A DNA stretch of 64,000 nucleotides from contig NZ_JACBFP010000002.1 of assembly GCF_021401085.1 (NCBI RefSeq), positions 62,001-126,000 on the forward strand, in the 5' to 3' direction. The stretch is from Chryseobacterium sp. R2A-55 (lineage in GTDB: Bacteria; Bacteroidota; Bacteroidia; Flavobacteriales; Weeksellaceae). A model generated the notes under the pieces. It saw only the letters and a list, made by a program, of their open reading frames with translations. It ran no database searches and was not told the origin of the DNA. Of the stretch, positions 4,575 to 43,904 are shown piece after piece (position 1 is the first letter of the stretch; each line of letters opens with the position of its first letter). Both the position numbers and the translations under genes were made by a program.

Positions 4575-5290
4575 TAAAATTTACCTTTTAAAAATTTTTG
4601 TCTCAAATCTTCGTCCAGTTTTTCGATAGCGTATCGAAGCGAGGTTCTGGGCATTTTGTGATAATTATCTTTTAGGAACGCCAAAAGTTCGTCTTCATTT
4701 TTTTGTCCCATTACGCGCAGAAGCCAACCGTTTGCCTTGTGCATCAAATCGTGTTCGTGAGATAAATTTTTTAAGACCAGTTCTTTCACCAGCTCAAATT
4801 TTCCTTTCTTGACATGAAACATGGTGGACACTACTGCCATTCTCTTTGACCACAAACGATCTTCATTTGCGAGCGCTCTGAGCAATTCATCCTCTTGATT
4901 TTCTAAACAATGCCTGCCCAAAATCTTGTAGCAGGAATTATCTACCAAATCCCAATTGTTGATATGTTTCCTATTCTTTAAATAAAATTTTACGATCTCT
5001 AATTTCTCGTCGGGATCTTTTGATTTTTCATACTTTGAAACGAGCATCAATAGTGCACTATGACGATATTCGTGGATTCTTGAAGAGAGGAGTTCCCGCA
5101 ATTCCTCCAGCGAAATTTTTTGGAAATATGCTTTCACCACTTTCCTTTGATCAGGAACGGTTACTCCGATGAATTTGTCGCCTTCCGCATATTCGCCTTT
5201 TCCCGCTTTGAAAAATCTAGGATAAAAATCTTTCTTTTCCGGCAATGCCAGTTCTTTTAATGCATTTTGAATTTCTTCTACTAAAATCAT
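4574..5290 (-). CDS. DNA alkylation repair protein, AlkD-like
   Basis: The 238-residue product is all-helical and follows the HEAT-like repeat plan of AlkD/AlkC glycosylases, which excise alkylated bases without base flipping. Recognisable blocks are GVTVPDQRKVVK near residue 42, INNWDLVDNSCY near 112, LWSKRMAVVST near 145 and the C-terminal MPRTSLRYAIEKL. These match AlkD-type proteins of Bacteroidota in order and spacing. It overlaps the downstream DUF6122-like gene by one base. A minus-strand -7 motif (CAAAAGTA on plus, 5309-5316) lies upstream. Confidence 0.85.
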   Translation of the reverse strand: MILVEEIQNALKELALPEKKDFYPRFFKAGKGEYAEGDKFIGVTVPDQRKVVKAYFQKISLEELRELLSSRIHEYRHSALLMLVSKYEKSKDPDEKLEIVKFYLKNRKHINNWDLVDNSCYKILGRHCLENQEDELLRALANEDRLWSKRMAVVSTMFHVKKGKFELVKELVLKNLSHEHDLMHKANGWLLRVMGQKNEDELLAFLKDNYHKMPRTSLRYAIEKLDEDLRQKFLKGKF

Positions 5291-5396
5291 GGAACCAAAG
5301 ATTTAAAGCAAAAGTAAACATTCTGGGCAAAATCAGCTTCTTCGCAAAACTTGAATTATAAATAAAATTTTCACGATAGAAAACCGTTATTAGAAT

Positions 5397-6050
5397 ATGT
5401 ATAAGATTTTAGTAATTTTGACGAGCCTTATTTTAGTTTGCTGTAACGGACAGGAAACTGAAAAGCCTATCAAAAAAAATCAAAAAATGGACAATCAAAA
5501 TTTAGAATACATCACGTTTGGTGGCGGATGTTTTTGGTGTGTAGAAGGTGTTTTTGAAAACCTGAAGGGAGTGGAATCAGTCGTTTCCGGATATTCCGGC
5601 GGACACAAAGCGAATCCTACTTATCAGGAAGTGTGCACCGGCGAAACCGGACATGCCGAAGTGGTTCAGGTGGGTTATGACCCTGCTGTTATTTCTTATG
5701 AACAAATGATGGACGTGTTTTTCTTTCTGCATGATCCTACACAACTGAACAGACAGGGAGACGATATCGGGACTCAGTACCGGTCAGTGATTTTTTATAA
5801 AGACGATGCGGAAAAATCAAGAGCCGAACAAGCCCTGAAGACCTCTGAAGCAAGTGGAAGATGGCATGGAAAGTATGTTACCCAAATCGTGAAATTTGAA
5901 AAATTCTGGCCTGCCGAAGATTATCATCAAGGGTATTTTGACGCCAATCCCAACCAACCTTATTGCAGCGCCGTGGTGGCTCCGAAAGTGGCCAAGTTCA
6001 AAAAACATTATGGCGAATTGGGAATGTTGAAACCCGAAGCAGTAAAATAA
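5397..6050 (+). CDS. msrA: Peptide-methionine (S)-S-oxide reductase MsrA, lipoprotein form
   Basis: MsrA reduces methionine-S-sulfoxide in damaged proteins. The catalytic motif GCFWC is present with C45 as the nucleophile, followed by the family blocks SGYSGGHKANPTYQEVC and GHAEVVQVGYDP and a C-terminal region with YHQGYF and PYCSAVVAPK. The N-terminus is a lipoprotein signal (hydrophobic stretch ending LVCC), so the enzyme probably sits in an envelope membrane facing the periplasm rather than in the cytoplasm. At 217 residues it is slightly longer than cytoplasmic MsrA because of that leader. A terminator follows directly. Confidence 0.95.
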   Translation: MYKILVILTSLILVCCNGQETEKPIKKNQKMDNQNLEYITFGGGCFWCVEGVFENLKGVESVVSGYSGGHKANPTYQEVCTGETGHAEVVQVGYDPAVISYEQMMDVFFFLHDPTQLNRQGDDIGTQYRSVIFYKDDAEKSRAEQALKTSEASGRWHGKYVTQIVKFEKFWPAEDYHQGYFDANPNQPYCSAVVAPKVAKFKKHYGELGMLKPEAVK

Positions 6051-30709: not shown

Positions 30710-31120
30710 ATGTACCCAGAAGATTTAGTAATGCCGATGAAGCATGAACTTACCGATAAAGGATTCCAGGATTTAACCACGCCTGAAGAAGTGGACAACG
30801 CGATTAAAAGAGAAGGAACTACCTTGGTGATGGTTAATTCTGTTTGTGGATGTGCAGCAGGAGCAGCGAGACCTGGAGTTATTTTCTCATTGACCGGCGA
30901 TAAAAAGCCAGATCATTTGGTAACCGTTTTTGCAGGTTATGATAAGGAAGCGGTTGCAGAAGCAAGAAAATTTATGGCACCAATTCCCCCAAGTTCACCA
31001 AGTGTGGCACTTTTCAAAGATGGAGAGTTGGTTCACATGTTGGAAAGACACCACATTGAAGGAAATCCTGCAGGTGCAATTGCAGCGAATTTGCAAGCGG
31101 CTTATGATGAATTTTGCTAA
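30710..31120 (+). CDS. BrxA/BrxB (YphP/YqiW) family bacilliredoxin
   Basis: The 136-residue thioredoxin-fold protein carries the family active site CGC within VNSVCGCAAGAARPG (near residue 45) and the conserved MYPEDLVMPM start and PPSSPSVALF segment. In Firmicutes these proteins remove bacillithiol from S-thiolated proteins. Some Bacteroidota make bacillithiol, so the same role is plausible but inferred. It is a single-gene transcript with its own promoter and a hairpin at its end. Confidence 0.92.
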   Translation: MYPEDLVMPMKHELTDKGFQDLTTPEEVDNAIKREGTTLVMVNSVCGCAAGAARPGVIFSLTGDKKPDHLVTVFAGYDKEAVAEARKFMAPIPPSSPSVALFKDGELVHMLERHHIEGNPAGAIAANLQAAYDEFC

Positions 31121-31143
31121 AACTAAAATTTTAGTTGAGATAG

Positions 31144-31172
31144 AAATTCCGCTTTGTTGAGCGGAATTTTTT
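31144..31172. terminator. Terminator between bacilliredoxin and the XRE regulator
   Basis: AAATTCCGCT (31144-31153) pairs with AGCGGAATTT (31160-31169) with a 6-base loop and a T tract after it. The flanking genes converge here. Confidence 0.8.
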
Positions 31173-31178
31173 GTAATC

Positions 31179-31520
31179 TTACAGAGAATCTTTTAATTTT
31201 TGGATTTCCTGTTCGAGTTTTTCGATATATTTCTTTTGCGTCTCCCACATAGAAAGAGGAACATTATAATTGATTATGGAATTAACATTTCCAGTTGCGC
31301 TATCATTGAAAATAAAAACTTGTGATTCTTCTGGTTCATAGATTTCTTCTAAAGGAACCTCTAGCGCATTTGCCAATTTTTGCCATTCATCGCGAGAAAT
31401 TTTAGTCTGTCCTCTTTCTCTACGATTATAGTTGGAAACGGTCACACAAAGTTTTTCGGCTAAGAAACTTTGTGACAACCCCTTCAATTTTCGAGTTTCA
31501 ATTAGTTTAGTTTTCTCCAA
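31179..31520 (-). CDS. XRE-family regulator, RiPP module 1
   Basis: The 113-residue product has an N-terminal helix-turn-helix of the XRE/Cro type (residues about 5-62: KGLSQSFLAEKL, then VSNYNRRERGQTKIS, then WQKLANALEVPLEEIYE), a short linker and a C-terminal coiled coil (KKYIEKLEQEIQKLK). It is a paralogue of the regulator at 34624. The start is TTG at 31520; no in-frame ATG exists nearby. It is divergent from the 7-Cys peptide gene, and regulation of that gene is inferred from this arrangement. Confidence 0.88.
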   Translation of the reverse strand: MEKTKLIETRKLKGLSQSFLAEKLCVTVSNYNRRERGQTKISRDEWQKLANALEVPLEEIYEPEESQVFIFNDSATGNVNSIINYNVPLSMWETQKKYIEKLEQEIQKLKDSL

Positions 31521-31629
31521 GCGGGAATGTTTTTACGAAAATAAGAAATAATAATTTATGGCTTAAAAAAAACATCATGCATGCCAAGTAATTATTACTA
31601 CACTAAAAGAATATTTATGTTTTGCAGTA

Positions 31630-31664
31630 TTTTGCAAACAATTCGCAAAATAATTATATATTTG
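31630..31664 (+). promoter_or_regulatory. Promoter and candidate operator of the module 1 peptide
   Basis: TATATTTG (31657-31664) is a -7 element. Immediately upstream an inverted repeat, TTTTGC (31630-31635) and GCAAAA (31645-31650), overlaps the -33 region. The 10-mer ATTCGCAAAA (31641-31650) recurs at the module 2 promoter (35258-35267), so it may be the site of the paired XRE regulators. Confidence 0.5.
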
Positions 31665-31729
31665 ATATGATAATTAGCTTTAAGTTTGAAATGTTAATAA
31701 TGACACAGAACAATTTAAAAATTTTTATT

Positions 31730-31906
31730 ATGAAAAATCTTAAAAAACTTTCGAGAAAAGAAATGAAAACATTAAATGGTGGAGCAGCGGGATGTAAAGA
31801 GCCAAATTGTCATTGTGGAGGAAATGGTATTAAACCACCAGCTAGTTTTTGCGCTAGTAGTCCAGCTGCATGCGGTGGTATATGCTACCAGTATGCAGGA
31901 TGTTGA
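31730..31906 (+). CDS. Seven-cysteine double-glycine leader peptide (bacteriocin-like precursor)
   Basis: The 58-residue product starts MKNLKKLSRKEMKTLNGG, a leader of the double-glycine type cut by C39 peptidases of ABC exporters. Cleavage after G18 would leave a 40-residue core with seven cysteines (C22, C27, C29, C41, C48, C52, C58) plus Gly and Pro. The ATG at 31730 is preferred because longer in-frame starts add a non-leader sequence. Downstream are a C39-like/VKOR/thioredoxin fusion, which fits disulphide formation in the core. The biological activity (bacteriocin or signal) is inferred from family context only. Confidence 0.8.
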   Translation: MKNLKKLSRKEMKTLNGGAAGCKEPNCHCGGNGIKPPASFCASSPAACGGICYQYAGC

Positions 31907-31937
31907 TTTGTTTTTTGACTAAAATTTCTTTGGTAAT

Positions 31938-31969
31938 AAAAAAGAGGAATTACAAAATTCCCCTTTTTT
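31938..31969 (+). terminator. Hairpin between peptide 1 and its processing genes
   Basis: An A-rich/GAGGAATT arm (31938-31951) faces AATTCCCC/T-rich arm (31956-31969) with one mismatch and ends in T residues. It probably limits read-through so that the precursor outnumbers the downstream enzymes. Confidence 0.6.
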
Positions 31970-32005
31970 ATTATTGAAGAAAATTAAGAAATTAATCCAT
32001 ATAAA

Positions 32006-32806
32006 ATGCACAATAATTTTTTTTTAATAATCTTATTATTTCTAGGATCTCTATTTTATTCCCAAGATTATGAAATTTTGTATAAGGTAGATTTCAGACC
32101 GCAAAAGAGCTCCTTAACTTCTTTTAAGACCGAATACATGGTTTTGCAAAGCAAACAAACAGCAAGTTTTTTTTTCAATCCTAACCTATTAAAAAAAGAC
32201 AATTTTAAAAATAATGAGACTTCTGAAAAACCGTATTTAAAGTTTTCTATTTTAAAAAGCGGTCAAAGCTCAACTTATATTGGAAGTTTTAACGGCCTTA
32301 ATTTCAAATTAAAAGAAACAATCCCATTAAAATGGAAAATTACGGATTATACAACAACATATAAAAATTATAAAGTACAGAAAGCTTATATAGAATTTGA
32401 AAATAGAAAATGGTATGCCTATTTTGCTCCAGAAGTTCCAATTTTTAATGGACCTTACAAATTTTATGGACTTCCTGGTTTGATTTTGCTGGTATGTTCT
32501 GATGACGGTGATTACAGTTTTGAAATGGTAGAGATTTCAAAACAAAAAAAATATGATGCTTCTAAAATTTTAAATTCTCAATCTGCATTAATCAAAAGAA
32601 ATGATTTAGATAAAATGATTTCTGAATTTGTAAAAGATCCTGGTTCTCACAATTTTCGAATTATGATAAATGAAAATGATAGTTTCGATTACCAATTTGA
32701 TGGTGAGAAAGGTGACGCATATAAAGATATGAATAAATATGTGAACGATTTGTTATCAAGATATGACAATCCAATCGATAAAAAAACATTTATATTAGTT
32801 TATTAA
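32006..32806 (+). CDS. GLPGLI family protein
   Basis: The 266-residue product has a signal peptide (residues 1-19, ending LFYSQ) and is otherwise a secreted beta-rich protein. The family motif YGLPGLI is at residues 154-160, preceded by WYAYFAPEVPIFNGPYKF. GLPGLI proteins are restricted mostly to Bacteroidota and are often found beside double-glycine peptides and their transporters; their function is unknown. Its stop codon abuts the ATG of the next gene, so the two are translationally linked. Confidence 0.9.
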   Translation: MHNNFFLIILLFLGSLFYSQDYEILYKVDFRPQKSSLTSFKTEYMVLQSKQTASFFFNPNLLKKDNFKNNETSEKPYLKFSILKSGQSSTYIGSFNGLNFKLKETIPLKWKITDYTTTYKNYKVQKAYIEFENRKWYAYFAPEVPIFNGPYKFYGLPGLILLVCSDDGDYSFEMVEISKQKKYDASKILNSQSALIKRNDLDKMISEFVKDPGSHNFRIMINENDSFDYQFDGEKGDAYKDMNKYVNDLLSRYDNPIDKKTFILVY

Positions 32807-34348
32807 ATGAAATCTTTAAACTTATTTATAGATTCAATAAATTTAGATTCTCAAGAATTCCTCTTCCAATTCCAATCCCATCCCAACTATCCTTCCGCAT
32901 TGGCGTTTAGTGACACGCTTAATTTTTTGGGCGTAAAGAATGAAGCGTACAATCTGGAAAAAGAATATTGGGAGGAATTACCGGAAGAATTTATCACAAT
33001 CCATAAAAATGAGTTCGCGCTGATTCATAGAATTGGCGATCAGGCAAAAATATTTAGCGATAAAGAAGAAATGGTCTCTTTTGAAGATGTGAAAAAATAT
33101 TCGGAAAACTTCATACTTCTTTTCGAGAAAAAGTATATTGAAAAAACTATTACTACTAAAAACACATTTTATTATTTCGCTTTATTTTTTGGCACTGCAA
33201 TTTTGCTTACAAACAACCTGATCCATTGGGATATTTGGAGTTTTGTATTTCAAATTCTTTCATTTTTAGGGGTTTATATCTTTTCGGAGATTTTCAAGGA
33301 AAAGTTTGGTTCAGAATCAGTCGTTCTGCAATCCTTCTGCGGAGCGGGAACAAAACAAAACACTTCAGAAGATGGGTGCAAAAAAATAATTCAATCCAAT
33401 GATTTCGAACTTTTCGGGCTGAAGTTTTCTGACTTTGGGTTTATTTATTTTGTTGCATTAGCAATATTACCATTATTCATAGCAAAAGAAAGCCTTTTGT
33501 TTATTGGGATTACTTCTTTGTCGTTATTGGGTGTTATTTATTCCGTTTACTACCAAATAAGGCAAAATATTTTTTGCAAGGTCTGTGGTTTGGTAATCGG
33601 TATTTTGGTTTTGCAATTTGTGATTTCATTTTTCAATTTTCGAGAAAACTTCTCAATTACAGAATTGTTATTAACATTATTCATAATTTTGTGCACCTTT
33701 TTTCTTATTCATTATATTTCAAAAACAATTGAAGAAAAAGAACAATACAAAACAGAAAATATAAAGAACCTACGATTCAAAAGAAATTATGAAATCTTTA
33801 GAAGAGAACTTTTAGACACTGAACAAGTTGACTTCAAGAACCCGAAAGCAAGATTTTTCTTTGGAAATAAAAAATCAAAACTGCATATCACATTAATTTC
33901 CAATCCGTTCTGCGGATATTGTAAGGATGCCCACAAAATATTAGAGAATATCTTACAAAAATATCCCGAAGAAATTTCTGCTCAAGTTCGTTTTAATTAT
34001 TTAACTGAAAATCAAGATGAAAAACTGGAAAACATCATAGGCTCATTAAATAACACTTACTCTGCTCAAGGTGAATTAGGCTTTTTAAAAGCAGTCCATT
34101 TTTGGTTTGAGAAGAAAGATGAAAACAATTTTTTAAAGAAATACCCGGTTTCTGCAACAGGAAGTCTTAAAGATTTAGAAGAAATTGGTTCAGAAAATTT
34201 GAGAAAGGGTCTAAGCTTCACGCCCATTTTTTTAATCAATGGAAACCGGTTCCCCGACAAATATGACCGTGAAGATATTTTCTATTTCCTTGATGATTTG
34301 TTGGAAGATGAAGAAATAATTAATGAAAAGCATCAAGAGTTTTCCTAA
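32807..34348 (+). CDS. Fusion of degenerate C39-like, VKOR and thioredoxin domains
   Basis: The 513-residue protein has three parts. Residues 1-105 resemble a C39 peptidase domain (HPNYPSALAFSDTLNFLG) but lack the catalytic Cys motif. Residues about 115-310 form a five-helix vitamin K epoxide reductase domain with loop cysteines C178 and C191 and the CKVC active site C257/C260. Residues about 350-500 are a thioredoxin-like domain with CGYC at C369/C372. VKOR-thioredoxin pairs make disulphides, and the C39-like domain may bind the double-glycine leader. The natural substrate would be the 7-Cys peptide two genes upstream; this is inference. Its end overlaps the truncated exporter gene by 26 bases. 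Confidence 0.88.
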   Translation: MKSLNLFIDSINLDSQEFLFQFQSHPNYPSALAFSDTLNFLGVKNEAYNLEKEYWEELPEEFITIHKNEFALIHRIGDQAKIFSDKEEMVSFEDVKKYSENFILLFEKKYIEKTITTKNTFYYFALFFGTAILLTNNLIHWDIWSFVFQILSFLGVYIFSEIFKEKFGSESVVLQSFCGAGTKQNTSEDGCKKIIQSNDFELFGLKFSDFGFIYFVALAILPLFIAKESLLFIGITSLSLLGVIYSVYYQIRQNIFCKVCGLVIGILVLQFVISFFNFRENFSITELLLTLFIILCTFFLIHYISKTIEEKEQYKTENIKNLRFKRNYEIFRRELLDTEQVDFKNPKARFFFGNKKSKLHITLISNPFCGYCKDAHKILENILQKYPEEISAQVRFNYLTENQDEKLENIIGSLNNTYSAQGELGFLKAVHFWFEKKDENNFLKKYPVSATGSLKDLEEIGSENLRKGLSFTPIFLINGNRFPDKYDREDIFYFLDDLLEDEEIINEKHQEFS

Positions 34349-34523
34349 TTACATCCAACCCGACTCCAAAGACTGCGGACCAACCTGCCTTAGAATAATT
34401 TCCAAATTCTATGGCAAAATCATTCCCCTACAACAAATCCGCAATCTCTCAGAAACGACAAGAGAAGGGAGCTTGTTACTAGGGCTGAGCGATGCGGCAG
34501 AAAATTTGGGCTTTAAAACTTAG
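34323..34523 (+). pseudogene. Truncated C39 domain of a peptidase-containing ABC exporter (module 1)
   Basis: The 66-codon frame begins at ATG 34323 and has the C39 start QPDSKDCGPTCLRIISKFYG, with the nucleophile Cys but not the catalytic His and Asp. It stops at TAG right after a block that is near-identical to the start of the exporter at 38687. The rest of the gene is missing, so this is a broken 5' fragment. It retains translational coupling to the upstream fusion gene. A small protein could still be made but could not cleave peptides. Confidence 0.88.
34356..34518 (+). repeat. Direct repeat, copy 1 (exporter 5' end)
   Basis: This 163-base block matches 38720-38882 without gaps and with five mismatches by my count (97% identity). 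It lies inside the truncated exporter fragment. The two copies are 4.36 kb apart and bracket the whole module 2. Confidence 0.9.
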
Positions 34524-34623
34524 GGGGTTCACATTGTTTTATCGAACATAATAAAAGCTATGAGTCTAATAAAGCTAAAACGTTAGTCCAAATGAATTCC
34601 ATTTGATTGGATTTTTTTTAAAT

Positions 34624-34974
34624 TTATAGGAAATCTTTTAGTCGCTGGATTTCTTGTTCGAGTTTTTCATTTTGTTTCTGTAGAAGCTCAATATAATTCA
34701 AAATAAAATCCGGAATCGTAATATTAATAATACCTGAATTAAAACTATTCCCTTTAATATTCGCATCAATAATGGTTGTTTTAGGTTCTTCTTCATAAAT
34801 ATCTTCTAGAATAACATCTAATTTTTTTGTAAGCAATTCCCATTCTGGTTTAGAAATTTTGGTGAGACCATTTTCCTTCCTACTATAATTTGGCTGGGTC
34901 ATTCCAACCAAATTCGCAACATCTTCTTGAGATAAACCCTTGCTGATGCGAATTTCTTGTAATTTTGTTTTCAT
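34624..34974 (-). CDS. XRE-family regulator, RiPP module 2
   Basis: The 116-residue product (ATG at 34974) has an N-terminal helix-turn-helix (MKTKLQEIRISKGLSQEDVANLVG, split: KGLSQEDVA, then QPNYSRKENGLTKIS) and a C-terminal coiled coil ending NEKLEQEIQRLKDFL. It is clearly a paralogue of the regulator at 31179; the tail coding sequences are similar even at DNA level. It is divergent from the module 2 precursor gene, about 370 bases away. Confidence 0.88.
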   Translation of the reverse strand: MKTKLQEIRISKGLSQEDVANLVGMTQPNYSRKENGLTKISKPEWELLTKKLDVILEDIYEEEPKTTIIDANIKGNSFNSGIINITIPDFILNYIELLQKQNEKLEQEIQRLKDFL

Positions 34975-35344
34975 AGTAAAAAAAATATTGATTAACAAAA
35001 ATAGATAATATAATTTTATGCACATGTTATTTGTATCAAATATGCATATTAATTATATAACACGGAGCTCATAAATTATTAATTTAGCAATTAAAAGCTG
35101 AAAAACAAAACTATTTCAAACCGTACATTCGCTTTTATTATTTGCTTGCTATCCATTATTGCATTTTATTCAAAAACAATAAAAGGAGATAATTTGAGTT
35201 TTTTAGAAATAAGAATTTTAACAAAGTAATTAAAACGTGTGACTTAAGATACTTTTGATTCGCAAAAAGTCTAAATATGGATACAGAAATTTAATTACGA
35301 TAACGTCGATAAATTATTTAATATCAACCGATAAATTATTTATT
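34975..35344. other. AT-rich divergent region of module 2
   Basis: No annotated-type gene lies here. A 43-codon frame without ATG or TTG/GTG start (35095-35226, stop 35227-35229) reads as a single membrane helix (TFAFIICLLSIIAFYSKT) and may be a gene remnant or a CTG-initiated small membrane peptide. The module 2 peptide promoter is near 35250. The rest is strongly AT-rich. Confidence 0.5.
35250..35267 (+). promoter_or_regulatory. Promoter and candidate operator of the module 2 peptide
   Basis: TACTTTTG (35250-35257) matches TAnnTTTG and is directly followed by ATTCGCAAAA (35258-35267), the same 10-mer found upstream of the module 1 peptide. The leader would be about 80 bases. Confidence 0.5.
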
Positions 35345-35515
35345 ATGAAAAAGTTAGAAAAATTAGAAAAGAAAAAATTTAAGAAAGAAATCATGGGAAA
35401 TGTTTTTGGTGGAGCTTCGCCAGGAGACACCTACCGAAACGAGGTAACTCAAGTTGGAAATAACCTCTACAGTATAGATAGAGTGAGGTATGACTGGATT
35501 GCTCCTATGGTTTAA
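35345..35515 (+). CDS. Double-glycine leader peptide of a grasp-with-spasm system
   Basis: The 56-residue product has a Lys/Glu-rich leader ending in FGG (residues 21-23). The 33-residue core has no cysteine but several Thr/Ser and Glu/Asp residues (D28, T29, E33, T35, S43, D45, D50), the kind used by ATP-grasp enzymes to make ester or amide macrocycles. Position directly before the ATP-grasp gene supports a precursor role. The ATG at 35345 is chosen because upstream in-frame starts (35255) would add a sequence that overlaps the promoter. Confidence 0.78.
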   Translation: MKKLEKLEKKKFKKEIMGNVFGGASPGDTYRNEVTQVGNNLYSIDRVRYDWIAPMV

Positions 35516-35534
35516 TTAAGAGATTTTCACTAAT

Positions 35535-35566
35535 AAAACACACAATAAATATTTGTGTGTTTTTTA
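35535..35566 (+). terminator. Hairpin between peptide 2 and gwsG
   Basis: AAAACACACAA (35535-35545) and TTGTGTGTTTT (35553-35563) form a perfect 11-bp stem with a 7-base loop, then T residues. It is placed like the hairpin after peptide 1 and probably attenuates the downstream operon. Confidence 0.75.
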
Positions 35567-35581
35567 ATTAATCTAAACTTA

Positions 35582-36553
35582 ATGAGTATTATTATTTTTA
35601 GTAAAGATAATGGAGAAACCACAACTGATAAAGTTATGGATTGGCTATTTACATCTGGAAAAAAAGATATTCTCAGAATTAATGGTAAAGATTTAATATC
35701 TTCAGATTTTTCTTTAGAAATAAATAGCAATTGTTTTGAGTTTAAAAGTCAAATTATAGATCACACTAAAATAAAAACTATTTGGTTTAGGAGAACCTAT
35801 GATGAAAACGTTTTTGATATTTTACCTTTTTTCAAGAATTATGAAAGTGACAAAAATTTAGAACTTCACTTAATGGGAGAACTAGGCGGCATCTATCGAT
35901 ATTTTGAATATTTTTTCTCAAAATCGCATTGGATTAACAAATATTCACAAAGATTAGATAAACTTAATAATATTTGCATAGCAAAAAAACATGGTTTAAA
36001 AATTCCTTTCACGCTTGTAACAAATTCAAAAGAAAGTATCCAAAAAAAGTCAGGCTTTAAAAAATTAGTAACAAAAGCAATAGGAGAAGCAACAACATAT
36101 TCTGATGACAAAGAAATATTTGCTTTATTTACAAGTAAAATCAAATTTTCAAATACTGACAAAAATTATTTTTTTCCTTCCAAGGTTCAAGAAGAAATAG
36201 AAAAGAAATTTGAGTTGAGAATATTTTATTGTGATGAAAAATTTTACTCAATGGCAATCTTTTCTCAAAATGATAAGCAAACACAATTAGATTTTAGAAA
36301 TTATAATCATCAAAAACCAAATCGTTTCGTTCCCTACAAACTTCCAGTTAATATTGAAAAAAAATTAAGAAAAATGATTATAGAGCTAGAATTAGCTACA
36401 TGTTCTATTGATATGATTGTGGATAAAGATTGGGAATATTACTTTTTGGAGATTAATCCCGTTGGTCAGTTTGGTATGGTTTCCAGTCCTTGTAATTATT
36501 TTTTAGAGAAGAAATTAGCGAAATTATTATTGAAAAACTGTCATGAAAAATAG
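35582..36553 (+). CDS. gwsG: Grasp-with-spasm system ATP-grasp peptide maturase
   Basis: The 323-residue product (ATG at 35582; a start at 35555 would overlap the hairpin) begins with the pre-ATP-grasp segment SIIIFSKDNGETTTDKVMDWL and continues through an ATP-grasp fold: IWFRRTY near residue 63, KLVTKAIGEATTY near 160, the ELRIFYCDEKFYSMAIFSQ strands near 213 and the metal-binding EINPVGQFGMV near 298. These follow the microviridin/graspetide ligase layout and the grasp-with-spasm subfamily. It would activate acidic side chains of the precursor with ATP and join them to Ser, Thr or Lys. Confidence 0.85.
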   Translation: MSIIIFSKDNGETTTDKVMDWLFTSGKKDILRINGKDLISSDFSLEINSNCFEFKSQIIDHTKIKTIWFRRTYDENVFDILPFFKNYESDKNLELHLMGELGGIYRYFEYFFSKSHWINKYSQRLDKLNNICIAKKHGLKIPFTLVTNSKESIQKKSGFKKLVTKAIGEATTYSDDKEIFALFTSKIKFSNTDKNYFFPSKVQEEIEKKFELRIFYCDEKFYSMAIFSQNDKQTQLDFRNYNHQKPNRFVPYKLPVNIEKKLRKMIIELELATCSIDMIVDKDWEYYFLEINPVGQFGMVSSPCNYFLEKKLAKLLLKNCHEK

Positions 36554-36740
36554 ACTAAACTTTAAAAGATCTTCTTTGCCTTTGTCTCATTGGTTTGTAA
36601 GAAGAATAAAAACATCGAAATCGGCTGTTCAAACCTTATACATCGGTAGCAATTCGAAAATTTTTCAAACAAATGGATATGAAGTACTTCCGCCAACTTC
36701 TCCAATTTCTAAAATTATTAACTTTGATGAAATTATTTAG
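36543..36740 (+). CDS. Small conserved-looking protein between gwsG and the lipoprotein gene
   Basis: The 65-residue frame overlaps the end of gwsG by 11 bases and the start of the next gene by 14, the tight packing of an operon in which every neighbour also overlaps. The product is basic at the N-terminus (KRSSLPLSHWFVRRIKTSK), contains YIGSNSKIFQTNGYEVLPP and ends acidic. There is no signal peptide, membrane helix or double-glycine motif. I do not recognise it; a chaperone, leader-binding or immunity role is possible but unsupported. Confidence 0.55.
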   Translation: MKNRLNFKRSSLPLSHWFVRRIKTSKSAVQTLYIGSNSKIFQTNGYEVLPPTSPISKIINFDEII

Positions 36741-37608
36741 TGTTTTGTTGGTCTTTCTGATCTTGGTAAATTGTACAAGTTTTCATAGCACAAACAATAA
36801 TTTGCGTGAATATTTCAAAATAGCAGATAATTTGTTAATGAATGGTGAGAAAAAAGAGTTATCCGATTTTACTTATCAAAATTTATTTCCAAATGTAAAG
36901 CACCTCGATAAAAATAAGAAAGCAAGGGTTTTAAACTACCTGCAAATTTCTCAAGATTCTGTCTATCTATCAATTGCCAAGAGATACATTAAAAATAACA
37001 CATCCAAAATCAGTAAATGTACTCTAGATTCTTCATCTATATCTTATTATAATGAATTAACTTCTTGTAAATCTTCTGATTATGATAGCCTTAGAAACAA
37101 CTTTAGAGAAATAATGTATAGAGATCAGTATTATAGACAATTACCTGACAAATATTTCACAGGAACAAAAGCAGCGATAGATAGTATAATGAGTGTGATA
37201 ATAGATAATGATAATCAAAACAGAGAAAGCATAAAAAAAGCACTATCAAAATATAGTTTCAAAAAAATAGCAGAAAATGATTGTGATTGCTCTTTATTGA
37301 AAACTGTTTGGTTCGTTGCACAGCATAGCGACTCTGACGTGCCTTTTCAAAAAGAAATTTTAGAAATGTTTTCTCGTCCATACCCCAATATTAAACCTCA
37401 GTATTATACATATCTTACAGATAGAATAAATATGAATGAGGGAAAGAAGCAAATTTATGGGACACAAATGCGTTTGAATCCGAAAACAAAAAAAATGGAA
37501 ATAAGTCCGGTGAAAAATCCTAAAAAAATTGATCAACTCCGCTTTCGAAACAATTTAATCGACTTACAAGTATATTTGAATTTTACAAATAAGCCTGACC
37601 AAAAATGA
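36727..37608 (+). CDS. DUF6624-like lipoprotein
   Basis: The 293-residue product has a lipoprotein signal (MKLFSVLLVFLILVNC, Cys at 16). Its C-terminal half has the DUF6624 pattern WFVAQHSDSDVPFQKE, YLTDRINMNEGKKQIYGTQ, then ISPVKNPKKIDQLR. Proteins of that group are of unknown function. Inside a RiPP operon a surface lipoprotein could serve as immunity, but that is inference. I start at the ATG at 36727 because the signal begins there; the frame is open from 36673. It overlaps gwsS by an ATGA junction. Confidence 0.75.
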   Translation: MKLFSVLLVFLILVNCTSFHSTNNNLREYFKIADNLLMNGEKKELSDFTYQNLFPNVKHLDKNKKARVLNYLQISQDSVYLSIAKRYIKNNTSKISKCTLDSSSISYYNELTSCKSSDYDSLRNNFREIMYRDQYYRQLPDKYFTGTKAAIDSIMSVIIDNDNQNRESIKKALSKYSFKKIAENDCDCSLLKTVWFVAQHSDSDVPFQKEILEMFSRPYPNIKPQYYTYLTDRINMNEGKKQIYGTQMRLNPKTKKMEISPVKNPKKIDQLRFRNNLIDLQVYLNFTNKPDQK

Positions 37609-38690
37609 AATTTCTCAATATATTTGAATGTTGTCTATTAGTAAGTGGGGCTTATAGAAGCTTAATATGTGACACACAGAGAGGACAATATTATTACATT
37701 CCAAATGATCTTTATGAATTACTTAAAAATGATTTCAAAAGATATGATATAGAAAAGATTAGAGCAATCTTTGGTACAGAAAACCATTCTACCATTGACA
37801 AATATGTTACTTTTTTAATAAAAAATGAAATAGGCTTCTTAGATAATAAAATAATTGAAGAATTAATACCAATAGATTTAAGATATGAAGTTCCAGAAGC
37901 AATAACTAGTTGCATTATTGATTTCTCGAAAAATTCTAATTATTACACAGAAAATCTGTCTTATTATATAGATAACTTAAGAATTAAATACTTGCAAATA
38001 AGATGTTTTGACTTTTCTGCAAGTTATTTGCAAAAATTCATCAAGTCTTTGCAAGACTCGACTTTACGTAGTATTGAGTTAATAATTCCTTTTGAAGAAA
38101 AATTAAAAATCACTTTAAAGAATATGATTTTGAGTTGTCCAAAAATATTCAGAGTTAATGTTTATAATTCAAAAGAAAGTAAAATAGATAAAGTACTAAG
38201 TAGAGATATAGTTTACTTAAAACAAAATATATCATCTGAAAAACATTGTGGAATAGTTCAGAAATCTTATTTTTCCAAAAATTTAGAAACATTTACGCTT
38301 TCCAAAAATCATAATTCCTGTCTCCACAAAAAAATTGCAATAGACATCAATGGCGATATCAGGAACTGCCCCGCAATGCCGCAAAGTTTCGGCAATATTA
38401 GGGACACTACATTAGAAGAAGCACTTGGTCACAAGGATTTTAAAAAATACTGGAACCTTACCAAAGACCAAATAGAAGTCTGTAAAGATTGTGAGTTTCG
38501 CTATATCTGTACAGACTGTCGAGCATACACAGAACGCACACACTCTAGCGCAGAAGGATTAGACACATCCAAGCCACTCAAATGTGGGTATGATCCCTAC
38601 ACAGGAGAATGGGCAGAATGGAGCACCAATCCATTAAAAGAAAAAGCCATCAACTTTTATGGGATGCAGGATTTGGTCAAGAAAAAATGA
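37605..38690 (+). CDS. gwsS: Grasp-with-spasm system SPASM-domain peptide maturase
   Basis: The 361-residue product has a clear SPASM domain: C239-x10-G-x4-C255, then C293-x2-C296-x5-C302-x2-C305 and C327, the Cys set that binds auxiliary Fe-S clusters. Upstream, no CxxxCxxC radical-SAM motif is visible; other cysteines (9, 10, 22) are not in that spacing. The N-terminal 90 residues look like a leader-binding (RRE-type) or adaptor region (YYYIPNDLYELLKND). Its function with GwsG is unknown. ATGA junctions link it to both neighbours. Confidence 0.82.
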   Translation: MKFLNIFECCLLVSGAYRSLICDTQRGQYYYIPNDLYELLKNDFKRYDIEKIRAIFGTENHSTIDKYVTFLIKNEIGFLDNKIIEELIPIDLRYEVPEAITSCIIDFSKNSNYYTENLSYYIDNLRIKYLQIRCFDFSASYLQKFIKSLQDSTLRSIELIIPFEEKLKITLKNMILSCPKIFRVNVYNSKESKIDKVLSRDIVYLKQNISSEKHCGIVQKSYFSKNLETFTLSKNHNSCLHKKIAIDINGDIRNCPAMPQSFGNIRDTTLEEALGHKDFKKYWNLTKDQIEVCKDCEFRYICTDCRAYTERTHSSAEGLDTSKPLKCGYDPYTGEWAEWSTNPLKEKAINFYGMQDLVKKK

Positions 38691-40911
38691 GAATAAAAAA
38701 AGTTTTTCCTTTCTATAAACAACCCGACGCCAAAGACTGCGGACCAACCTGCCTTAGAATAATTTCCAAATTCTATGGCAAAACCATTCCCCTACAACAA
38801 ATCCGCAATCTTTCAGAAACGACAAGAGAAGGGAGCTCGTTACTCGGGCTGAGCGATGCGGCAGAAAATTTGGGCTTTAAAAGTCTAGGCGTGCTAATTA
38901 ATTTCAAAACTTTGATTGAGGAAGTTCCGCTTCCATGCATCGTCCATTGGAACAAGCAGCATTTTGTGGTGGTATATGAAATCAGACGTAAAAAGACAGT
39001 AGATAAGGGACATGAGACTACAATTAGAGTCAGTGATCCAAGTTATGGTTTAATCGAATATTCTCAAGAAGAATTCATCAAAATGTGGATTGGCGAAAAT
39101 GCCAACGAAAACACCGAGGAAGGAATTGCTCTCATTTTAGAAACCTCTCCCGCTTTTTACCAAAACGAATTTGATGAGAAAGAAAACAAGGCGAGTTTCC
39201 GTTTCTTATCAAAATATCTGTTGAAGTACAAATCTCTTGTTTTCCAACTTGCAGTAGGTTTGTTGGCGGGGAGTTTACTCTCCTTAATTTTTCCGTTCCT
39301 TACCCAAAGTATCGTGGATGTAGGAATTCAAAATCAAGACCTGAACTTTATTTACCTTGTACTTCTCGCCCAAATCATGCTTTTCATCGGCAGAATGGGA
39401 ATCGAGGTAATTAGAAGTTGGATTTTGCTCCATCTTTCTACAAGAATTAATATCTCGATTATTTCCGATTTCTTTATTAAACTGATGAAGCTTCCTATCG
39501 GTTTTTTTGATACCAGAATGACCGGCGATATTTTACAAAGAATAAACGATCATCATAGAATCGAGCAACTATTGACCAATTCCACGCTCAACACATTGTT
39601 TTCATTGGTCAACCTTATTGTTTTCAGCATCGTTTTACTATTATATGATTATCGTTTGTTTTTAGTATATTTAGTGGGCGCCATTTGTTATGTAGTATGG
39701 ATTCTATTCTTCCTCAAAAAAAGAAAAGAACTGGATTATAAAAGATTTTCTCAAGTTTCTCAAGAACAGAGCAGCGTTATCGAAATCGTGAATGGGATGC
39801 AGGAAATAAAGATGCATAACGCAGAAAAACAAAAACGTTGGGGTTGGGAATTTCTACAAGTCAAGCTTTTTAAAATTCAAATCAAGTCACTTTCGTTAGA
39901 ACAATGGCAATCAGTGGGTGGAAATTTCATCAATCAGATGAAAGATATTTTGGTGAGTTTTCTTTCTGCAAAATTGGTTTTGACCGGAAATTTGACTTTA
40001 GGAATGATGCTTTCAGTACAATATATTATCGGGCAATTGAATAGTCCTTTAATCCAGCTTATCGATTTTATCAAGCAAACCCAAGACGCGAGTATTTCTT
40101 TGGAAAGATTGAAAGAAATCCACGATAAAGAAGACGAAGAAAATACTGACGAACAATACGTTTCAGAAATCCCTAAAAAAGACATCCTAATAAACGGCGT
40201 TTCTTTCCGATATACAGGTTCTGACCAATTTGTATTTGAAAATCTCAATCTTGCCATTCCTCATCAGAAAACAACGGCAATCGTTGGAGCAAGCGGAAGT
40301 GGAAAAACGACCCTATTGAAGCTGCTCATGAAATTTTATGAACCCAATAAAGGAGAAATAAAACTCGGAAATTCAAATCTGAAAAATATTTCTCCCAAAA
40401 TTTGGCGAGACCATTGTGGTGTCGTCATGCAGGAAGGCTATGTCTTCAACGACACCATTGCACAAAACGTTGCGATCGGCGAAGATTATATCGATAAAAA
40501 AAATTAAGAAAAGCCGTTGAAATCGCTAACATAAAGGATTTCGTAGAAGAGTTACCCCTAAGTTACAACACCAAAATCGGAAATGAGGGAATCGGAATCA
40601 GCGGTGGACAAAAACAAAGGCTGTTTATTGCGCGAGCAGTTTATAAATCGCCCGACTTTATTTTTTTCGATGAAGCCACAAGCTCTTTGGATGCAAACAA
40701 TGAAAAAGTCATCATGGAAAACCTCGAACAATTTTTTGAGGGAAAAACGGCTGTCGTAATTGCCCATCGCTTATCAACTGTAAAACATGCCGATAAGATC
40801 ATTGTTTTGGATAAAGGAAAAGTCGTTGAAGAAGGAAACCATGCAGAATTGGTCGCTTTAAAGGGAGAATATTACCGATTGGTGAAAAATCAATTGGAAT
40901 TGGGGAATTAA
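38687..40911 (+). pseudogene. Peptidase-containing ABC exporter (PCAT) with frameshift at an A8 tract
   Basis: The gene encodes a C39 peptidase domain (C18 in DCGPTC, H92 in HWNKQHF, D118), a six-helix membrane domain and an ABC domain. It cuts double-glycine leaders and exports the core. The first frame ends at TAA 40505-40507, just after A8 (40496-40503). One extra A would restore the frame into the rest of the ABC domain, which holds the ISGGQKQR signature, FIFFDEATSSLD Walker B and the H-loop IAHRLST. Walker A (GASGSGKT, near residue 534) lies before the break. Full length would be 741 residues; the unshifted product has 606 and would be inactive. Sequencing error, decay, phase variation or slippage are all possible. 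Confidence 0.88.
38720..38882 (+). repeat. Direct repeat, copy 2 (exporter 5' end)
   Basis: Partner of 34356-34518, five mismatches in 163 bases, no gaps. It covers the catalytic-Cys region of the C39 domain. Confidence 0.9.
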
Positions 40912-40914
40912 TTT

Positions 40915-40948
40915 ACTTTGTCAAAGTTGAAATCTTTGACAAAGTTTT
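40915..40948 (+). terminator. Perfect hairpin between exporter and hlyD-like gene
   Basis: ACTTTGTCAAAG (40915-40926) and CTTTGACAAAGT (40934-40945) form a 12-bp perfect stem with a 7-base loop and three following T residues. It lies inside an apparent operon, so it may act as an attenuator or mRNA stabiliser rather than a full terminator. Confidence 0.55.
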
Positions 40949-40963
40949 AAAAATGTAGAAAAA

Positions 40964-42268
40964 TTGGAAGAAAGAAAGAACATTTTGGATCATATCGAAC
41001 TTCGCTCCGAAAGCGTGCAAGACATTCTCACGCGACCGCCCCATTGGATGATTAGGTGGGGAAACTCCATTGTTTTTGCCATTCTACTCATGATTTTATT
41101 GATGAGCTGGTTCATCAAATATCCCGAGTTTATTCCCGCACCAATTATTGTCACCTCACAAAATCCGCCGGAGAAACTAGAAGCAAGAACCAATTCCAAA
41201 ATTGAAAAAATATTGATTAAAGATCATCAAGAAGTAAAGAAAGATGATATTTTAATGGTATTACAATCTACGGCAAACTTCAAAGATGTATTGAAATTAA
41301 AGAAAATCATCGATTCCATCTCTCCGAAAATGATTTTTACTTTTCCACTCAATGAGGCTTCTAAATTCAAATTAGGTGAATTGCAGGGAGACTACAACAA
41401 TTTTGCAAAGGCTTTTCAAGATGAAAAATTATTTACTAGGCTTCAACCATACGCTCCTGAAAATTTAGCGACAAGTCAAAGCTTAACAGAATATAATTCC
41501 AGAATCGCAACATTAAAACAACAACTTCACTTGGAGAATGCAAAATATGACTTAAGCAAAAAGAATTTTCAACGTTCACAAACGCTTTTTGAACAAGGCG
41601 TAATTTCTAAAATGGAGGTTGAAAATGAAAAAATTAAATTTCTTCAAGCGGAACAAAATCTAAAGAATATTAATATTTCCCTATCGCAACTGCAGGAAGG
41701 AATTTCTAATCTTCGTAAAACAAAAAGCGGTGTAGCAATTAATACAGAAAAAGATAAGATAAGTTATTCTTCACAGACTCTGCAACTTTTTGAACAGCTG
41801 CGTAAATCCTTAAAACAATGGGAGCAAAATTACCTCTTAACCTCTTCAACCAATGGAACAGTAAGTTTCACGCAATTTTGGGGTGAAAACCAATTTGTAA
41901 AAAGTGGAGAAATCATTCTTTCCGTTTTACCACAAAATAAAGAAGCAATTGTAGGAAGAATGTTGGTGCCTGCAACAAATTCCGGAAAAATTGTGACTGG
42001 ACAAAAAGTATTGATCAAACTGGACAACTACCGCTATCAAGAATATGGTATCGTACAAGGAAAGGTTCAAAACATTTCGTTAACTCCGGATGAGAAAGGG
42101 AATTATTATGTGGACATCATTTTGTCGAATGGTTTAAAGACATCATATAATAAAACGCTTCCATTCGATAAAGAATTGAAAGGAAATGCAGAAATCGTCA
42201 CGCAAGATTTAAGATTGATCGAAAGATTCTTCTACCAGACAAGAAAGCTATTGGGTTATCAAACCTAA
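40964..42268 (+). CDS. HlyD family secretion (membrane fusion) protein
   Basis: The 434-residue periplasmic adaptor links the PCAT exporter to an outer-membrane TolC-like channel. It has a cytoplasmic N-terminus (residues 1-27), one membrane helix (about 28-48, IVFAILLMILLMSWF), a biotinyl/lipoyl-like half (IEKILIKDHQEVKKDDILMVLQ), a long coiled coil (about residues 175-250) and beta-barrel segments near the C-terminus. The start is TTG at 40964; no ATG occurs upstream of the membrane helix. It ends the RiPP operon. A TolC homologue is encoded at 53110, not adjacent. Confidence 0.88.
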   Translation: MEERKNILDHIELRSESVQDILTRPPHWMIRWGNSIVFAILLMILLMSWFIKYPEFIPAPIIVTSQNPPEKLEARTNSKIEKILIKDHQEVKKDDILMVLQSTANFKDVLKLKKIIDSISPKMIFTFPLNEASKFKLGELQGDYNNFAKAFQDEKLFTRLQPYAPENLATSQSLTEYNSRIATLKQQLHLENAKYDLSKKNFQRSQTLFEQGVISKMEVENEKIKFLQAEQNLKNINISLSQLQEGISNLRKTKSGVAINTEKDKISYSSQTLQLFEQLRKSLKQWEQNYLLTSSTNGTVSFTQFWGENQFVKSGEIILSVLPQNKEAIVGRMLVPATNSGKIVTGQKVLIKLDNYRYQEYGIVQGKVQNISLTPDEKGNYYVDIILSNGLKTSYNKTLPFDKELKGNAEIVTQDLRLIERFFYQTRKLLGYQT

Positions 42269-42310
42269 AATCGTTTTGAAAGTTCGGAAAACGAAAGTTT
42301 TAGTTTAGAT

Positions 42311-42342
42311 AAAATTCCCTTCGATTGAGCGGAATTTTTATT
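42311..42342 (+). terminator. Terminator at the end of the RiPP locus
   Basis: AAAATTCC (42311-42318) and GGAATTTT (42331-42338) form a stem around a 12-base loop, followed by T/A-rich DNA. It closes the hlyD transcript before the GH3-family gene. Confidence 0.65.
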
Positions 42343-42375
42343 TAAAGTCAACTGGAAAATCTAATCAAAAAGCAT

Positions 42376-42389: not shown

Positions 42390-43904
42390 ATGGCAACAAA
42401 GGCTCTTTTCAATACGGTGGTCAATTGGTTTATCCGGCAAAGGATCGACCAGATTCAGAACTTTATGAAACACCCGATTGAAACGCAAAACGGCGTGCTT
42501 TTTTCCCAACTCTATTTCGCCGAAAACACCGATTATGGAAAGATTTATGGATTCAGCTCCATTTCCAATTATGACGATTTTGTGCGAAATGTGCCTATCG
42601 TAACTTACGAAGATTTTGAACCATTCATCGAAAAAGCAAGACAGGGAAATCCCGACATTTTTTGGCCGGGAAATATCAGAAAGTTCGCAAAATCGTCGGG
42701 AACCACCAACGCAAAAAGCAAGTTCATTCCGATTTCTGATGAATGTTTGGAAGATTGCCATTTTAAGGCGGGAAAAGATTTGCTTTCGATTTATGCGAAT
42801 AACCATCCGGAAAATAATTTATTTTCCAACAAGAACCTGAGACTTGGCGGAAGTTCAGAACTGTATGAAAACTTCAACACGAAATTTGGCGACTTGTCTG
42901 CCATCATGATTGAAAATCTGCCTTTTTGGGTAGAAATTACGACGACTCCAAGCAAGAAAGTTTCCTTAATGTCTGAATGGGAAAGCAAACTGAAAGCCAT
43001 TATTTCTGAAGTAAAAAACGAAGACGTGGGAAGTTTGACCGGCGTTCCGAGTTGGATGATGGTTTTACTTCAACGAACTTTGGCTGAAACCGGTTACGCT
43101 ACGATTTCGGAATTATGGCCTAATTTAGAAGTCTTTTTCCACGGCGGGATCAGTTTCAAACCCTATCGTGAACAGTACCGGAAAATTATCGGTAAAGACA
43201 TCAATTATTACGAAATCTACAATGCTTCAGAAGGATTTTTTGGCATCCAGGACGTTTCCGGAAGTGATGAAATGCTCTTAATGCTCGATTACGGGATCTT
43301 CTATGAGTTTATCCCGATGGACCAATTTGAACTCAACAATCTGCATGCGATTCCTCTGGAAGAAGTGGAAGTGGGTAAAAACTACGCAATGGTGATTACC
43401 ACAAACAGCGGACTTTGGCGATACCTGATCGGTGACACCGTTCGGTTTACCTCTGTTCATCCGTACCGAATCCGAATTTCTGGCCGCACCAAACATTATA
43501 TCAATGCTTTCGGCGAAGAACTGATGATCGACAATGTGGAAACCGCTTTGACGAAAGCCTGTGAAGCCACTGATTCCGCAATTACCGATTTCACGGGAGC
43601 TCCCGTTTTTATGCAAAATGGCGAAAGTGGAGCCCATGAATGGATTTTTGAATTCAGTAAAAATCCCGCGGATCTGGAATATTTCACCCAGGTTTTCGAT
43701 CATCACCTGAAATCGCTCAATTCCGATTACGAAGCGAAAAGATATAACAACATGACTTTAAAAAAACCGGTAGTTCACGTTGCAAAACCTCAGCTGTTCT
43801 ACCAGTGGATGTCTGAACGTGGGAAACTTGGCGGTCAAAATAAAGTTCCCAGATTGAGCAATGACCGGGAATATATCGAGCCGCTGCTAAAAATGAATCA
43901 ATAA
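42390..43904 (+). CDS. GH3 (auxin-responsive promoter) family acyl-adenylating protein
   Basis: The 504-residue product belongs to the GH3 branch of the adenylate-forming superfamily: the ATP-binding RKFAKSSGTTNAKSKFIPIS near residue 100, FFHGGISFKPY near 250, YNASEGFFGIQ near 278, GLWRYLIGDTVRF near 340 and SGRTKHYINAFGEEL near 363. Plant members conjugate amino acids to acyl hormones; the bacterial substrate is unknown, most likely a carboxylic acid activated with ATP. I start at ATG 42390 (an upstream TTG would add three residues). Confidence 0.9.
   Translation: MATKALFNTVVNWFIRQRIDQIQNFMKHPIETQNGVLFSQLYFAENTDYGKIYGFSSISNYDDFVRNVPIVTYEDFEPFIEKARQGNPDIFWPGNIRKFAKSSGTTNAKSKFIPISDECLEDCHFKAGKDLLSIYANNHPENNLFSNKNLRLGGSSELYENFNTKFGDLSAIMIENLPFWVEITTTPSKKVSLMSEWESKLKAIISEVKNEDVGSLTGVPSWMMVLLQRTLAETGYATISELWPNLEVFFHGGISFKPYREQYRKIIGKDINYYEIYNASEGFFGIQDVSGSDEMLLMLDYGIFYEFIPMDQFELNNLHAIPLEEVEVGKNYAMVITTNSGLWRYLIGDTVRFTSVHPYRIRISGRTKHYINAFGEELMIDNVETALTKACEATDSAITDFTGAPVFMQNGESGAHEWIFEFSKNPADLEYFTQVFDHHLKSLNSDYEAKRYNNMTLKKPVVHVAKPQLFYQWMSERGKLGGQNKVPRLSNDREYIEPLLKMNQ

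Follow-up and report, generated by a model that had tools for sequence, protein, structure and literature searches.

Two kinds of described locus for ribosomally synthesized and post-translationally modified peptides (RiPPs) meet in a stretch of DNA from Chryseobacterium sp. R2A-55: grasp-with-spasm graspetide loci, and loci encoding 'bacteriocin-like' double-glycine (GG) peptides (NF047798, leader_Chryseo) with GLPGLI and VKOR-DsbA proteins. In the portion of PMC8939145 used here, an LPL family and a lipoprotein-like 'cluster 23' are described for the graspetide loci of branch 5, and eight branch-5 precursor clusters matched known models while 79 more did not. The orphan modules of contact-dependent inhibition (CDI) and Rhs systems offer a third point of reference. 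According to the sections of PMC4927057 that treat them, newly gained modules are proposed to push older ones aside, the displaced modules retain pieces with homology to the intact delivery gene, and it is proposed that these pieces serve either as a 'fossil' record of earlier captures or as a reserve for recombination.

The window, meaning the whole 64,000-nucleotide stretch analysed (positions 62,001 to 126,000 of contig NZ_JACBFP010000002.1), comes from a genome of 2.9 Mb in 35 contigs. An AT-rich island of ~11 kb, at 31.1-42.3 kb of the window, carries two modules, each led by an XRE regulator and each with a GG precursor, and ends in a PCAT exporter gene and an HlyD gene. A preliminary description, made from the sequence alone, had drawn this outline, and it held up: the two regulators are paralogs, the seven-Cys precursor of module 1 is accompanied by GLPGLI and by a C39-like/VKOR/thioredoxin fusion (its C39-like part being weak), the Cys-free precursor of module 2 by ATP-grasp and SPASM maturases that score above the cut-offs of TIGR04192 and TIGR04193, and one frame-broken PCAT with one HlyD closes the locus. 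What that description missed is a second piece of PCAT, at 34323-34518, between the two modules.

An exporter stub at the joint of two modules

This PCAT 5' stub (34323..34523, plus strand; PF03412, 48 bits) overlaps the end of the VKOR gene. Its strong similarity to the full gene stops at 34518, so that 196 nucleotides (nt) from the 5' end of a second PCAT gene remain here (amino acids 3-82, with one TAG). The genome holds one close full PCAT and this one fragment; no second close PCAT was found in it. Stub and full gene agree at 24/38 positions over nt 1-38, at 153/158 over nt 39-196, where 51 of 53 third positions are identical, and at 24/64 over nt 197-260. The best tract, nt 34-196, is 97% identical to the full copy, similarity collapses beyond both of its ends, and 0 of 20000 shuffles of the matches reach its score. 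Over nt 39-196, four other full genes show 78-83% identity to the window's own full PCAT and 77-80% to the stub. The stub tract is far closer to the window's own full PCAT than the other full genes are, and the two copies thus have in common a segment of recent origin with sharp limits. The start codon of the stub overlaps the end of the VKOR gene, as a PCAT frame overlaps the VKOR gene in a relative (G135, locus L046), and the full PCAT overlaps the SPASM gene by ATGA, as in G008. Since both overlaps have counterparts in relatives, both joints look like native joints between a gene and its exporter.

The tract, the recurrence of stubs in relatives and their 5' bias suggest that recombination between the 5' ends of PCAT genes probably brought module 2 to its place. 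The preliminary description had proposed that the modules were joined by recombination; the stub and its abruptly bounded, near-identical tract support that proposal and make it specific. Module 1 (XRE, seven-Cys peptide, GLPGLI, VKOR-DsbA) would originally have continued directly into its own PCAT gene. An XRE-led graspetide module ending in a PCAT start would then have been inserted within the first ~200 nt of that gene, leaving the old exporter start as the 196-nt stub and the rest of PCAT-HlyD behind module 2. Repetition of the same kind of event in relatives would have produced cassette arrays with several stubs, and cassettes would also have been swapped between conserved flanks: an intergenic repeat on the left, the SPASM 3' end and PCAT on the right.

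Recurrence of stubs, and other readings of their origin

A 67-residue N-terminal PCAT query was searched over the 36 genomes of the window's genus, which we take to be Kaistella-like, giving matches in six genomes and none in 30. Four of the 36 encode a full PCAT at 87% identity or more: the window's own (G000), G006, G008 and G017. These same four contain 11 stubs (one, three, five and two, respectively), nine found with the N-terminal query and two more, both in G008, by tblastn with the intact G008 PCAT; one of the latter two is weak (37-42% identity). The other two genomes, G009 (75% identity) and G024 (46%), gave no countable stub, a match at G024:610593 (38%, with an open frame of 390 residues) being excluded from the count. 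All stubs derive from the first ~134 codons of PCAT, with ends between about codon 27 and codon 134. Four of them (three in G008, one in G017) join at the same point to an intergenic repeat of ~220 bp located ahead of precursors, while the remaining junctions differ, for a total of up to eight in the genus. An assembly error or a chance similarity might be suspected, as the window's assembly is in 35 contigs, but the pattern recurs in G006, G008 and G017, each a genome of one contig, and the stub has an E-value of 1.6e-33 in its own genome; we give such explanations next to no credence.

Outside the genus, sets of 100 and 61 genomes were examined for stubs. G131 has a decayed stub (amino acids 3-58, two stops) immediately after a stand-alone module of the module-2 type. 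Locus L081 of G283 repeats the window's plan: a stub, a minus-strand helix-turn-helix regulator, a precursor, ATP-grasp, SPASM, VKOR pieces, GLPGLI and a full PCAT. In L088 of G309, which contains two radical-SAM modules, the first module is followed by a stub from another PCAT clade (45% identical), and the full PCAT follows the second, one gene on from the stub. A second stub in G283 follows a lantibiotic dehydratase gene (L085); such genes (PF04738/PF14028) lie near PCAT stubs in both L080 and L085, and may represent a third chemistry that once shared the exporter. Several candidates were set aside: a stub on contig C74 of G283, near the contig end (8066-8497 of 8714); matches on C76, C90, C50 and C77 of the same genome, which belong to other PCAT types (about 41-53% identity); and, as a Chryseobacterium-like stub, the match in G120 (L091), which is a second PCAT, almost whole but broken, accompanied by a broken HlyD. 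That broken PCAT-HlyD copy lies downstream of a precursor-ATP-grasp-SPASM-GLPGLI cassette.

The fragments are biased toward the 5' end of the exporter gene. A query with the middle 250 residues of PCAT in eight genomes found no lone fragment among seven matches of at least 70% identity, all seven of which belong either to whole genes or to the broken PCAT of the window. The last 134 residues, searched in nine genomes, gave nine matches of at least 80%, none of them a lone fragment. HlyD, searched over the 36 genomes of the genus, is present as a single whole copy in each of the four stub-containing genomes, with broken copies in G009, G022, G025 and G032. G131 stood outside the genomes of these middle, C-terminal and HlyD controls. 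The controls bear on a different history, in which two complete loci became neighbours and a deletion then took out the remainder of the first PCAT together with its HlyD, the stub being the leftover. Exporters do get lost, as the broken HlyD copies in the genus indicate, and the window's own PCAT is broken. Such a deletion should, however, leave 3' pieces of PCAT or HlyD between modules, and none of at least 80% was seen in those genomes of the genus that contain stubs; stubs repeatedly end between the same approximate codon limits, and the near-identical tract indicates recombination anyway. We regard this history as unlikely.

Codon changes are a further point in favour of placement by recombination. 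Of the codons that differ between a stub and its own or nearest full gene, the nonsynonymous share is 9/13 for the window, 24/41 for G008 b1, 7/28 for G006 s1, 22/66 for G006 s2 and 12/34 for G017, against 2-8 nonsynonymous of 26-41 changed codons in pairs of full genes; about six of the nine in the window lie in the divergent first 38 nt. The higher share would fit pieces no longer under full constraint, with G006 s1 falling within the range of the full genes. A stub retained as a working small protein, comprising the leader-binding half of C39, or as a selected regulatory part would explain why several keep an open frame (67 residues in the window, 149 in G006, 77 in G017) and why the changed codons of G006 s1 look almost as constrained as those of full genes. 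The half of C39 with the His and Asp (H92 and D117 in alignment A3) is missing from the window stub, however, and the window stub's changed codons are mostly nonsynonymous; other stubs contain stops, five in one G008 stub. A working role is most improbable.

A contrast between flanks and cassettes, such as exchange would leave, is seen in one pair of relatives. The G008 and G017 arrays occupy one site, with 88.9% identity in the downstream stretch, and they share, at 93.6% identity, a block of 3.9 kb that runs from the SPASM 3' end across PCAT and HlyD. Between the conserved flanks the cassettes diverge: SPASM genes are 53-81% identical per 100 nt, PCAT 5' blocks 74-96% per 50 nt, and the precursors differ. 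On the left, the ~220-bp intergenic repeat found upstream of many precursors (L041, 9051-9310, with copies in L078, L040, L079 and L044) has central blocks 94-100% identical between G017 and G008 while the cassettes differ. In the window only the last ~60 nt of the repeat are present, before precursor 1. G017 has SPASM followed by a full PCAT; G008 has SPASM, a stub, an extra precursor-ATP-grasp-SPASM cassette and then the full PCAT. The two illustrate a before and an after rather than a clean pair, as their first SPASM genes are 59-81% identical per block. The G008 array (L040) also contains transposase genes with rve domains, on the reverse complement at 1177-2351 and 4524-5710, and the second transposase pair sits between two parts of an ATP-grasp gene.

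Delivery of module 2 into the PCAT gene by a transposon or site-specific element might be considered in light of those transposase genes, of transposase-like genes (by similarity to those of G008) that follow the stub in G084, and of the direct repeats of 58 bp that bound the whole window island. Yet no transposase or integrase was seen among the open reading frames (ORFs) of the island, and the stub ends and the sequences after them differ between loci. We consider delivery by such an element very unlikely. A plasmid or phage vehicle was likewise sought: with PCAT as the tblastn query, 154 plasmid and 12 phage records matched, none reaching 60% identity, and no close carrier was among them.

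Modules of both types occur apart from one another. A module of the module-1 type with a full PCAT-HlyD is found in Chryseobacterium sp. Leaf404 (L060), with a shortened VKOR gene (61% identical over residues 1-376) and an extra GLPGLI ahead of PCAT. The preliminary description had held that modules at unrelated sites in relatives, each with a complete exporter, would speak against joining. Such an arrangement was found for module 1 only, not for module 2, and a module 1 standing alone with a full exporter argues for a fusion in the window, not against one. A family search across 316 genomes, 17 of them with a match, supplied module-2 relatives; five weaker ones (43-45%) were left out. G006 (L042) has a module-2 type (ATP-grasp 53%, DUF6624 35% and SPASM 58% identity) ahead of a full PCAT, from which it is separated by a stub and three further ORFs. 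A decayed version in G032 (L138) consists of an XRE 68% identical to XRE1, a precursor (52%), an ATP-grasp gene (63%) with eight stops and a DUF6624 gene (65%) with two, followed by a 3' piece of HlyD; since this module-2-type set is led by an XRE1-like regulator, reshuffling of regulators and modules may occur as well. Nine genomes of genus g6, presumably Chryseobacterium-like, have the module-2 type with XRE, ATP-grasp and SPASM, the precursor being matched in four and DUF6624 in none. No full PCAT lies within the 14-16 kb retrieved around these nine loci, one of which has the G131 stub.

Several observations weigh against such a recombination between PCAT 5' ends. The tract of nt 39-196 has five differences, three of them protein-changing, which is too few to judge selection. 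The left junction of a stub requires a second, unreconstructed event, and stub ends vary. In 111 Chryseobacterium-like genomes, 101 of which have a full-length match of at least 80%, only one close stub is found (G084), a count that leaves out genomes G161-G222 and low-identity short frames such as those in G138, G102, G104, G101, G068 and G081. Two 106-residue PCAT 3' fragments, 71% identical, appear in G283 among the matches listed, and an HlyD 3' fragment in G032; other decay, then, happens too. No before/after strain pair was found for the window island. A strict order, in which the last module to arrive lies nearest the exporter, was tried and is not borne out, as the G008 stub identities, taken by distance, are 77, 72, 76 and 66%. 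An extension of the recombination reading is more tentative: the first ~200 nt of PCAT, with the intergenic repeat before precursors, could be the docking site of a system for swapping weapons, in which entire RiPP pathways of differing chemistry, travelling as circular or transformed cassettes, attach at the exporter's 5' end and push older ones upstream. While this is rather doubtful, each array would in that case preserve the history of captures that came to share one exporter.

Genes of the island and its insertion site

Module 1 begins with XRE regulator 1 (31179..31520, minus strand; PF01381, 55.1 bits), which is 48% identical to XRE regulator 2. A palindrome between it and precursor 1 (31628..31652, no strand; 11-nt arms 91% complementary), one of six inverted repeats listed for that gap, is a candidate operator. 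Precursor 1 (31730..31906, plus), with a GG leader and seven Cys, scores 32.4 bits to NF047798 (cut-off 23.5); against NF047792, the CCPGW putative bacteriocin model, it reaches 20.7 bits, under the cut-off of 80. It is followed by the GLPGLI family protein (32006..32806, plus; TIGR01200, 116.5 bits, cut-off 50) and by the fusion protein of 513 residues (32807..34348, plus; PF07884 and PF13462, and fold comparison), in which C178, C191, C257, C260, C369 and C372 do not vary across the 12 sequences aligned. The fusion is likely disulphide-forming. Fold matches cover residues 142-279 and 326-510, and the C39-like part is weak (hhalign 37%). A search of genome contigs with the fusion gave two loci.

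Module 2 is led by XRE regulator 2 (34624..34974, minus; PF01381, 37 bits), again with a candidate operator before its precursor: a palindrome at 35017..35048 (no strand; 14-nt arms 79% complementary), one of seven inverted repeats listed for the gap. Precursor 2 (35345..35515, plus), with a GG leader and no Cys, is a predicted graspetide by its sequence, and relatives of it (38-52% identity) lie upstream of ATP-grasp genes in five of ten loci. It matches no family at E 0.1, the TIGR04139 and TIGR04149 precursor models included, which we do not regard as disqualifying because most branch-5 precursor clusters, in the data seen of PMC8939145, are likewise unmatched. The ATP-grasp maturase (35582..36553, plus; TIGR04192, 272.7 bits, cut-off 230) is followed by a candidate LPL-like small protein (36543..36740, plus), with no Pfam hit, proposed by eye from a SLPLSHW motif after the LPL description in PMC8939145. 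A DUF6624 gene (36727..37608, plus; PF20329, 40 bits, cut-off 27), whose product begins with a lipobox-like LVNC judged by eye, separates this ORF from the SPASM maturase (37605..38690, plus; TIGR04193, 322.5 bits, cut-off 175). Our guess is that the DUF6624 protein is the 'cluster 23' of PMC8939145.

The PCAT exporter (38687..40911, plus) is complete in its domains, C39, ABC membrane and ABC ATPase (PF03412, PF00664 and PF00005, all above cut-off). Its nearest solved structures are 4s0f and 4ry2, 'ABC-type bacteriocin transporter', with the 4ry2 alignment covering residues 4-604. C18, H92 and D117, which we take to be the catalytic Cys, His and Asp of C39, are invariant in all eight sequences of alignment A3. 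The reading frame is lost at 40496-40507, at a run of eight A (40496-40503), so that no single intact frame is present, while close full PCAT copies in congeners have open frames. The break may be a true pseudogene, a slippage tract or a sequencing error, which the sequence itself does not distinguish. The HlyD-type adaptor follows (40964..42268, plus; PF13437, 44.7 bits, cut-off 22.2; TIGR01843, 107.9 bits, under its cut-off of 208.65). Each XRE would control its own module, and maturation would take place in the cytoplasm. Removal of the GG leaders and export of both peptides would fall to PCAT, oxidation of the Cys peptide to the VKOR-DsbA fusion. Shared export, as put forward in the preliminary description, is plausible from the GG leaders and from the single close PCAT in the genome, but with its frame broken in the assembly the exporter may export nothing in this strain. 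Family names suggest a bacteriocin-like function, in killing or signalling.

In base composition the island stands apart: by 2-kb windows, GC is 0.28-0.29 over 32-38 kb and ~0.36 at 30-32 and 38-42 kb, with all other windows at 0.38-0.44. Its left neighbour is a PF06491 gene (30710-31120) and its right neighbour a GH3 family gene (42390-43904). Elsewhere in the genus these two genes are adjacent at 28 of 29 other GH3 loci (30 of 36 GH3 loci were retrieved, own included), with a spacing of about 100-110 bp in 24, 138 bp in one and 0.4-1.0 kb in three; in L099, the PF06491 gene was not found within the 1.5 kb of GH3 available. The direct repeats flanking the island (31119..31176, the terminator of the preceding gene, and 42288..42345; no strand) are 58 bp long, carry a terminator, agree with each other in 51 of 60 alignment columns, and both match the single copy at the empty site of G002. 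They may be a trace of single-crossover integration. The best reading of the locus is a horizontally acquired island.

Comparison with described systems

The preliminary description had called the pairing of modules something other than a described system. For the joint this stands as far as the literature was searched, no published account of exporter stubs between RiPP modules having been found in the open-licence literature; it does not stand for the modules, both kinds of which are known. Module 2 resembles branch-5 grasp-with-spasm loci, as portrayed in the part of PMC8939145 consulted, in its ATP-grasp and SPASM proteins above cut-off, its upstream GG precursor, its lipoprotein-like neighbour and PCAT/HlyD, and perhaps in its candidate LPL-like small ORF. 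It is unlike them in being stacked behind a disulphide-type module, seemingly inside the latter's exporter gene, and in a precursor that matches no curated family; exporter stubs are not mentioned in that part of PMC8939145. Module 1 has every component of loci for NF047798 peptides with GLPGLI and VKOR-DsbA, and VKOR and/or GLPGLI genes lie upstream of a full PCAT in many annotated relative loci, unlike module 1, whose PCAT is reduced to a stub. The pneumococcal blp/com system shares a broken exporter gene: in the part of PMC4739721 considered, close to 70% of strains have a broken blpA, the blp signal peptide can leave through another exporter, ComAB, and no stub between modules is mentioned. 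Unlike that system, the window's genome yielded no second close PCAT.

CDI/Rhs orphan modules are the nearest published parallel, and stub arrays may work like them without being members of that class. The likeness, by analogy only, is a displaced module carrying a fragment of the delivery gene, here the PCAT stub. No CdiA/Rhs effector with C-terminal toxin and immunity gene was found among the island proteins scanned against Pfam. The polarity is mirrored, with an exporter 5' stub in place of an effector 3' end, and the cargo is a whole RiPP pathway. An exporter stub would be a concrete mark of how RiPP pathways of different chemistry stack on one exporter, and could guide searches for multi-RiPP arrays and for orphan modules that possibly rely on an exporter in trans. 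It makes a testable claim on how bacteria swap peptide weapons, parallel to that made for CDI/Rhs orphan modules.

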